Made by a program: the position numbers and the translations under genes. From positions 310,001 to 374,000 of the forward strand of contig NZ_JAYEZO010000002.1 of NCBI RefSeq assembly GCF_037031285.1: DNA of 64,000 bases. The letters run 5' to 3'. Positions 6,902 to 62,922 of the stretch are shown here, in pieces. The notes below the pieces were generated by a model. The model saw only the letters and a program-made list of their open reading frames with translations. It searched no databases and was not told the origin of the DNA. This stretch comes from Halobellus sp. LT62. GTDB lineage: Archaea > Halobacteriota > Halobacteria > Halobacteriales > Haloferacaceae. Position 1 is the first letter of the stretch. Each line of letters opens with the position of its first letter.

Positions 6902-7009
6902 GTGGCGAACAGCCGACACCCGCGTCGACGACGCTCCCCGCGCGTCGCCTGTTTCCCGCGCCGACGTGCCGGACAACCGCTATCCGGCGCGGGGTCGAAC
7001 CTACGTCAC
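6902..7009 (-). ncRNA. candidate small RNA, family A copy 1
   Basis: Structured intergenic element shared with 32316-32433 and 49804-49931. On the minus strand it starts at a GTGACGTAGG motif and ends near GCTGTTCGCCAC. Its core is a perfect 9-bp stem (plus-strand CCCGCGCCG at 6955-6963 with CGGCGCGGG at 6985-6993) closing a 21-nt loop that holds the conserved plus-strand ACAACCGCT. A second 6-bp hairpin (CGACGC/GCGTCG) lies between the stem and the distal box. Boundaries are inferred from conservation and promoter spacing; the 3' end is uncertain because no T-run is visible. I do not recognise the family. Confidence 0.6.
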
Positions 7010-7032
7010 GGGGGCACTGCCCGCGTCTTCGG

Positions 7033-7048
7033 TTATAAACTCTCGGCG
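7033..7048 (-). promoter_or_regulatory. BRE/TATA box for family A copy 1
   Basis: On the minus strand the sequence reads CGCCGAGAGTTTATAA, a BRE-like purine element followed by a TATA box. The first G of GTTTATA (7040) is 31 nt from the G of GTGA (7009), the same spacing as in the two other copies and right for a TATA near -27. The box is symmetrical enough that it might also serve the rhomboid gene at 7094. Confidence 0.55.
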
Positions 7049-32315: not shown

Positions 32316-32433
32316 GTGGCGAACAGCTGGCACCCGCTTTCGTGGCCCGTACCGTTGATGAGACCACGCTCCTCCGTTCCCGCGTCGACGCGCCAGACAA
32401 CCGCTGCCCGACGCGGGGTGGTTCCTACGTCAC
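32316..32433 (-). ncRNA. candidate small RNA, family A copy 2
   Basis: Second copy of the family A element. Plus-strand CCCGCGTCG (32379-32387) pairs with CGACGCGGG (32409-32417), closing a 21-nt loop with ACAACCGCT. Compared with copy 1 one base pair of the stem changed on both sides (C-G to T-A). The minus strand starts GTGACGTAGG at 32433 and ends at CTGTTCGCCAC. A 5-bp CGTGG/CCACG hairpin lies between core and distal box. It occupies most of the 368-bp gap between 32181 and 32550; the remainder (32182-32315) holds only a GGTCGA/TCGACC hairpin near 32281-32308. Confidence 0.6.
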
Positions 32434-32455
32434 GGCGACGCTGGCCGCCCGATCG

Positions 32456-32472
32456 TATATAAACACTCGGCG
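32456..32472 (-). promoter_or_regulatory. BRE/TATA box for family A copy 2
   Basis: Minus strand CGCCGAGTGTTTATATA. The G of GTTTATA (32464) is 31 nt from the G of GTGA (32433), identical to the other copies. On the plus strand TATATAAA could also serve the YgfZ-like gene. Confidence 0.55.
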
Positions 32473-49585: not shown

Positions 49586-49715
49586 ACAACTTTGGAAGCC
49601 CCCACCGTCTCGACTCGATGCGCTTGCTGCGGTCCTCGTCGCTCGCTTCGCTCGCTCCTGCGGTCCTTGCATCGCGCGTCTTCGCCGAGACGGTGGCCCC
49701 TTCCATTCCCACCTC
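49586..49715 (-). repeat. family C long-hairpin element, copy 1
   Basis: On the minus strand it begins GGTGGGAATGGAAGGGGCC and ends GGTGGGGGCTTCC. The arms CACCGTCTCG (49603-49612) and CGAGACGGTG (49686-49695) are a perfect 10-bp inverted repeat, flanked by GGAAG/CTTCC (49594-49598, 49700-49704). The interior holds an AGCGAGCGAAGCGAGCG hairpin. The copy at 60184-60298 shares the flanks but has different, equally complementary arms. Confidence 0.75.
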
Positions 49716-49803
49716 GCCGAATACCGGTAGCAATCGCTCGCCGACGGACGAGTCAGTCGTTTCATCTCGGTCGATCAGTCCATTGTAGACCCACGGCTGA
49801 TCG

Positions 49804-49931
49804 GTTTGGCGAACAGTCGGCACCCGCTCGCGACCCGCGACGATGGCCCCGCCAACACCGGCGCTGTCGGTTGTCTCCCGCGCTGCTGTGCCGAACAACC
49901 GCTACACAGCGCGGGGCGGATATCAGATCAC
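49804..49931 (-). ncRNA. candidate small RNA, family A copy 3
   Basis: Third copy. Plus-strand CCCGCGCTG (49877-49885) pairs with CAGCGCGGG (49907-49915); the covarying pair is at a different position from that of copy 2. The closed loop is again 21 nt with ACAACCGCT. The minus strand starts at GTGATCTG (49931) and ends at CTGTTCGCCAA. A TGGC/GCCA mini-hairpin occupies the variable region. It lies 89 nt from the htpX start, on the opposite strand. Confidence 0.6.
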
Positions 49932-49955
49932 GCTGGGTGTGGTCCCATCTTCACA

Positions 49956-49970
49956 GATAAACGCTCGCCG
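49956..49970 (-). promoter_or_regulatory. BRE/TATA box for family A copy 3
   Basis: Minus strand CGGCGAGCGTTTATC. The G of GTTTATC (49962) lies 31 nt from the G of GTGA (49931), as in copies 1 and 2. This copy has the weakest TATA. Confidence 0.5.
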
Positions 49971-62743: not shown

Positions 62744-62922
62744 TGTGTGTCTCGTTTCCTCCGTTTCCGACGGAGAGTCGGTGATAGTTGTCGCCCAGTA
62801 CAGTTCGGAGTTGTCGCGGTATCGTATTTAAATGGTCGCCTATTCTTGTAGGGTGAGATTCGGCGACGAGGAGGCGTCTGTGGCGTCGTCAGCGACGGAG
62901 TGGGCGTGAAAATCCGGTTCTC

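Follow-up and report, generated by a model that had tools for sequence, protein, structure and literature searches.

A pseudoknotted RNA family of salt-loving archaea with a predicted leaderless start-stop reading frame

Three intergenic copies of one element lie in a 64,000-nucleotide stretch of the Halobellus sp. LT62 genome (contig NZ_JAYEZO010000002.1, positions 310,001 to 374,000; hereafter the window), each with a hairpin that stays paired through changes on both of its sides. Does such an element act as DNA or as RNA, and what would so short an RNA do? A sequence-only reading of the window had proposed a functional folded RNA of a family that it did not recognise, and had suggested a comparison with Rfam and a covariance-model search of haloarchaeal genomes. 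On re-examination, the elements are found where they had been placed, at 6902-7009, 32316-32433 and 49804-49931, with the plus-strand stems CCCGCGCCG/CGGCGCGGG, CCCGCGTCG/CGACGCGGG and CCCGCGCTG/CAGCGCGGG, two positions of which are altered on both sides. The 21-nt loop with ACAACCGCT is present in all three, and the outer blocks TGGCGAACAG and TCACG are conserved across them. Three is also the exact number that a covariance model returns for the window (E 7.6e-35 to 3.6e-33), but the genome total is about 43. The proposed bounds are real, the upper ones (7009, 32433 and 49931 in copies 1, 2 and 3) falling exactly on the first base of the predicted RNA, but the true element reaches a TATA box beyond them (TTTATAA at 7033-7039, TTTATAT at 32457-32463 and TTTATCT at 49955-49961). 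Similarly, the closing stem is real and covarying, but it is one half of an H-type pseudoknot, the supposed conserved loop pairing with a 3' block; and the sequence between the blocks, variable as described, belongs for the most part to pseudoknot loop 3, as an optional addition that is short in other genera. The neighbours in the window are a DUF389 gene and a rhomboid protease, a DUF6432 gene and a GcvT-like gene, and a TGT-family gene and an M48 peptidase.

Aligned in the minus-strand reading, 25 copies begin with a purine-rich BRE-like stretch and TTTATATA, and the spacer 3' of their stem-loop is very variable in length. The 3' block GUGCCGG is complementary to CCGGCAC in the loop, which gives the second helix (P2) of the pseudoknot; this helix covaries as CCGACAC/GUGUCGG, CUGGCAC/GUGCCAG and UCGGCAC/GUGCCGA, and as GCGGCAC/GUGCCGC in other genera. 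Sequence comparison yields the following layout: a mini-ORF, a spacer of about 7 nt, the 9-bp helix P1, the loop DGCGGKUGY, the 7-bp P2, the variable loop 3 and the tail CUGUUCGCC. All parts of the window copies lie on the minus strand. Copy 1 runs from its BRE/TATA promoter with the CGCGGGCA box at 7018-7025 (7018-7046 in all) through the mini-ORF GTG-ACG-TAG (7001-7009; predicted transcript start 7009), the P1 5' strand CCCGCGCCG (6985-6993), the loop motif AGCGGTTGT (6973-6981) with the P2 5' strand CCGGCAC (6966-6972; together 6966-6981), the P1 3' strand CGGCGCGGG (6955-6963) and the variable insert of loop 3 (6920-6954) to the P2 3' strand GTGTCGG (6913-6919), which forms one block with the conserved tail CTGTTCGCCA (6903-6919). 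The promoter of copy 2 (32442-32470) carries a GGCGGCCA box at 32442-32449 and precedes a mini-ORF GTG-ACG-TAG at 32425-32433 (predicted start 32433); the segment 32379-32417 holds P1 (CCCGCGTCG at 32409-32417, CGACGCGGG at 32379-32387), the loop motif (32397-32405) and the P2 5' strand CTGGCGC (32390-32396), and is followed by a loop 3 whose variable insert has a hairpin of its own (32334-32378) and by the P2 3' strand GTGCCAG (32327-32333) with the tail CTGTTCGCCA (32317-32333). Copy 3 has its promoter at 49940-49968 (TGGGACCA box 49940-49947), the mini-ORF GTG-ATC-TGA at 49923-49931 (predicted start 49931), P1 (CCCGCGCTG at 49907-49915, CAGCGCGGG at 49877-49885), loop motif (49895-49903) and P2 5' strand TCGGCAC (49888-49894) within 49877-49915, the variable insert of loop 3 at 49824-49876, and the P2 3' strand GTGCCGA (49817-49823) with the tail CTGTTCGCCA at 49807-49823.

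Both helices are maintained by compensatory change well beyond the window. Across 74 copies, 99.1% of the cells are paired and double-sided changes occur in 13 of the 16 pairs of the two helices (124 such cells), against at most 8 pairs and 16 cells, with 25-49% of cells paired, in slid controls; none of 500 shuffles reaches the observed values. A further 59 copies, mainly from other genera and families, show double-sided changes in 11 of the 16 pairs and 169 double-changed cells, compared with at most 7 and 25 in controls; in both sets the covariation stands out from shuffled as well as slid controls. Copies within a genome are related, so that these counts are not independent events and p-values overstate independence. 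The covariation thus strongly supports the functional folded RNA of the sequence-only reading: two crossing helices with compensatory changes make this a pseudoknotted structured RNA. Its strand, overlooked in that reading, follows from the cells that depart from Watson-Crick pairing, since in the minus reading 32 of them are G.U and only 4 are A.C across both helices; a plus-strand RNA is rejected on the same asymmetry. The single-structure folding energy of the three window copies is no better than that of shuffles (z -0.40, 0.77 and -0.08), which is not surprising in GC-rich sequence with a method that does not admit pseudoknots, and the evidence is therefore covariation, not stability. A brute-force search also put forward an additional helix between the loop GCGGUUG and the tail CUGUUCGC, which is rejected because the tail changes without the loop.

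To which family does the RNA belong, and how far does it extend? Rfam release 15 gives no matches in the window at gathering scores and, at a lax threshold, the three loci show only sub-threshold matches outside the element, in line with a family that had gone unrecognised. A simple pattern search finds seven copies in the source genome and at least one copy in 10 of 17 genomes searched within the genus. With the covariance model, whose E-values are rough, the source genome has 43 copies at E <= 2e-8 on both contigs and both strands, and matches are found in 136 of 170 genomes of the family and in 248 of 391 genomes of the class, representing 55 of its 86 genera; the class-wide search used strict filters and limited the number of candidates scored, so copy numbers there are lower bounds, and AT-rich genomes may be missed. 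In a phylum-wide sample, every one of the matches listed falls in the same order. Genera with copies include Haloferax, Haloarcula, Halogranum, Salinigranum and Halomarina, and copy number ranges from 1 to more than 40 between genera, with one to four copies detected in the Haloferax genomes sampled. A strict pattern occurs in none of the viral contigs, and none was found in plasmid records. Conservation falls at both ends of the element and stops sharply at the tail. The findings strongly support an undescribed RNA gene family, absent from Rfam and spread across salt-loving archaea.

Some irregularities accompany this distribution. Five genomes of the same GTDB genus (G011 and G013-G016) have no copy and very few first-look candidates; L016, the one locus seen of these genomes, is AT-rich, so the RNA may be absent from, or hidden in, a relative of low GC content. 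In two RNA copies, L251 (C2:421840-422056) and L250 (C2:270203 region), the element is split by a palindromic insert whose ends are GTTTGCAAC/GTTGCAAATGCTACTATA-like; it is similar to a MITE that occurs beside L018 and L071, too. Several RNA copies have a common stretch nearby, GG(C/T)GGGAATGGAAGGGGCC or the complement of it, as at 49640-49720 in the window and downstream of L062 and L073.

The 5' end of the RNA has a constrained pattern of its own, which the sequence-only reading had missed. The promoter of the element consists of a TATA box and a CGnG(G/A)CCA box, the latter placed at a fixed spacing in the interval from TATA to start. At the expected transcript start, 179 of 184 distinct copies have a start codon (GUG in 160, AUG in 19), and after one further codon a stop follows in 177 (UGA 134, UAG 23, UAA 20). 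UGG is found at the stop position once in 184 copies, though both of its bases are individually common there; the association of G and A at the last two stop bases has a Fisher p of 4e-16 with phylogeny ignored. On the tree of elements there are at least 17 and at least 14 changes at the two variable stop bases, and at least 14 at the first base of the start codon. Stops are rare in other nearby triplets, and the start-stop pattern is confined to one frame and place: the first in-frame stop is the third codon in 175 of the 184 copies and the fourth in 4 more. With a looser TATA word, ordinary protein genes of the same and related genera show a maximum of TATA-like words 28-31 nt ahead of the start codon (38, 57, 36 and 16 counts against about 4), as is typical of leaderless mRNAs; a strict word gives no signal upstream of such genes. 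The TATA box of the element lies 29-30 nt upstream of the mini-ORF start codon, which is the distance of leaderless genes, and the RNA should therefore begin with its own start codon. With its transcript start so predicted, the 5' end reads as a leaderless minigene of a start, one codon and a stop. The promoter does not appear to belong to the plus-strand neighbours, since three such genes have, by eye, TATA-like words of their own near -30. A role as transcription initiator could also account for the retention of the start codon, which would count against ribosome engagement.

The position of the first helix is similarly regular: in 165 of the 184 copies, P1 begins 15-16 nt downstream of the first start-codon base. 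In Haloferax volcanii, a ribosome with the start codon in its P site gives a toeprint at +15/16 (PMC6104027), and the location of P1 is the fit that would be expected if a ribosome sat on the mini-ORF. GUG starts occur in 118 leaderless transcripts of H. volcanii (PMC4983044); two reporter tests cited in the same work found GUG to be a weak leaderless start, so that ribosome engagement could be slight.

The same promoter is shared by a conserved set of protein genes with pilus, nuclease and DNA-repair members. In the source genome, the combination of TATA, box and RTG at fixed spacing has 56 matches with at most two mismatches, mostly RNA copies, while the reversed pattern has 0. Six of the matches outside the RNA copies have at most one mismatch, and in all six an ORF of 150-701 aa starts exactly at the RTG; these genes are DUF7310, a T2SSE pilus/secretion ATPase followed by a T2SSF-like membrane protein, DUF7283, a small protein ahead of an Mre11-like nuclease, DUF7382 and a PLD-family protein. 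The DUF7382 gene adjoins a HerA-like ATPase gene on the opposite strand, and matches with two mismatches include a Cas4-like protein, a ParA-like ATPase and DUF7857. The promoter-sharing protein loci (L243-L248) are located at C1:596755-601831, C1:617782 and 717162, and C2:452157, 504023, 291457 and 287293. In four other genera, Haloferax and Haloarcula among them, the pattern finds both RNA copies and leaderless protein genes of the same types, which by sequence likeness are DUF7382, Cas4-like, DUF7857-like, the Mre11-operon protein, DUF7310 and PLD. Among the 106 genomes listed, 64 have both the RNA and DUF7283, 22 only the DUF, 4 only the RNA and 16 neither (Fisher 1e-5, phylogeny ignored). 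Judged by sequence, the genes sharing the promoter form a candidate conserved DNA-uptake regulon. A role in DNA uptake or exchange is suggested by gene content and by analogy with the Sulfolobus Ups/Ced system (PMC11868833), and the pilus locus fits subclade 4F of the haloarchaeal type IV pili (Makarova et al., PMC4858521). As far as the available parts of these two accounts go, both systems include a pilus ATPase and a membrane protein like those encoded in the co-promoted set, the 4F loci have a coiled-coil protein and an FtsZ-like gene that are both seen here, and an RNA component or a shared promoter box is described for neither. Next to the DUF7310-T2SSE pilus operon, and divergent from it, is a tubulin/FtsZ-like gene (L243:3624-4778), as in subclade 4F.

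We regard the element as a co-regulated RNA that would engage ribosomes through its own start and stop codons, and give this reading a probability of about 0.5, both transcription and ribosome binding being predicted from sequence patterns. As a small minus-strand RNA gene, each element would be transcribed from the start codon, and a ribosome would initiate on the leaderless GUG or AUG as it does on haloarchaeal mRNAs, to stop after one codon with the pseudoknot against its mRNA entrance. Such an initiation and immediate stop would make the transcript a ribosome-engaging non-coding RNA, which might serve as a docking site, a decoy or a local brake on translation and might be made in many copies when the pilus and DNA-processing regulon is on. 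The range of copy number between genera, from one to above 40, is odd for a core brake. This class-wide structured RNA, with up to 43 copies per genome, bears a conserved one-codon frame at its 5' end, set exactly so that the expected edge of a ribosome would meet P1.

A less probable though serious alternative is that the RNA acts within this regulon as a scaffold or as a base-pairing sRNA. Its active parts, which bind a protein or other RNAs, would then be two segments that are conserved though unpaired, the loop GCGGKUGY and the tail CUGUUCGCC, and the start-stop pair would merely clear ribosomes from the leaderless 5' end, sparing the pseudoknot. A promoter common to protein genes agrees with such a role. 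Neither the retention of GUG or AUG in 179 of the 184 copies nor the start of the stem at the ribosome edge is explained by it, however, and the tail varies at two bases without a matching change in the loop.

The ribosome-engaging reading can be extended to the regulon as a whole, as a new RNA class that recruits ribosomes via the leaderless start, holds or recycles them at the pseudoknot-backed stop and serves a competence-like regulon for DNA uptake in haloarchaea as its RNA-based brake on translation. We consider this extension rather unlikely. Haloarchaea are known for gene exchange, and their import machinery and its control are little known. The shared promoter ties the RNA to pilus-assembly, nuclease and recombination genes that resemble a DNA import system.

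A DNA-level repeat or mobile element of MITE or REP type, or a promoter decoy for the transcription factor of the regulon, with an RNA of no role, is very improbable. The roughly 43 dispersed copies on both strands, each with a full promoter, are what such an element might leave, but covariation with G.U rather than A.C and the start-stop pattern speak against it. In addition, inspection finds no inverted repeat at the element ends, and 14 of the 25 copies from other Halobellus species occupy a site shared with one of 30 copies of the source genome. Even less credit can be given to a pseudoknot that stimulates read-through of the mini-ORF stop into a longer protein: the element does have the layout of known read-through sites (stop codon, spacer of about 7 nt, pseudoknot), but loops 1 and 3 vary in length by non-multiples of three and a convergent gene follows the element in 89 of 129 copies. 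No more credible is a nuclease guide RNA with the variable sequence after the tail as its guide. In its favour, haloarchaeal IS200/IS605 omega RNAs also have a hairpin loop that forms a pseudoknot with a 3' motif and occur in several copies per genome (PMC12558985), the conservation stops sharply at the tail, and the Cas4-like gene has the same promoter. Against it, omega RNAs are encoded with transposase genes, at the end of tnpB, and have another sequence and no leaderless mini-ORF; no TnpB lies beside the copies examined, whose neighbours are diverse ordinary genes; even orthologues, L060 and L032 for example, do not agree in the sequence after the tail; and the start-stop mini-ORF is left unexplained. 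C/D and H/ACA guide RNAs are rejected, since inspection of the consensus shows neither a box C RUGAUGA with a box D CUGA and a kink-turn nor an ACA box behind a hairpin, and no Rfam family matches at gathering scores. A cis-regulatory leader or riboswitch is likewise rejected, with a same-strand downstream neighbour in only 40 of the 129 copies (window copy 1 among them); in 63 of the 129, both neighbours are antiparallel to the RNA, and the neighbouring genes are diverse.

Minigenes of phage lambda bar and E. coli, with a start, one or two codons and a stop, engage and release ribosomes and can trap translation factors. They have a Shine-Dalgarno leader and are not known to have a conserved pseudoknot, whereas the present ORF is predicted to be leaderless and lies in a conserved RNA family. 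We found no described counterpart in the literature to an RNA that combines a conserved one-codon frame with a pseudoknot. The haloarchaeal gene of the H. volcanii rancRNA_s194 is likewise intergenic and has a TATA box 28 nt before its start, and the RNA acts at the ribosome (PMC6104027). This RNA differs in that it binds the 50S subunit without blocking initiation complexes, is reported in eight other Haloferax species rather than class-wide, and is described with neither a start-stop pair nor a pseudoknot (PMC6104027). Non-coding sRNAs of H. volcanii with ribosome footprints and no coding evidence have also been reported (PMC12482152), and the present RNA would be expected among them; the accessible portion of that report describes no family, pseudoknot or mini-ORF. 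One further trace of the promoter occurs in the window, on the minus strand at 62768-62839, where TTTAAATACGATACCGCGACAAC weakly resembles the promoter portion of the RNA model (13.6 bits), with neither a pseudoknot nor an in-register start codon.
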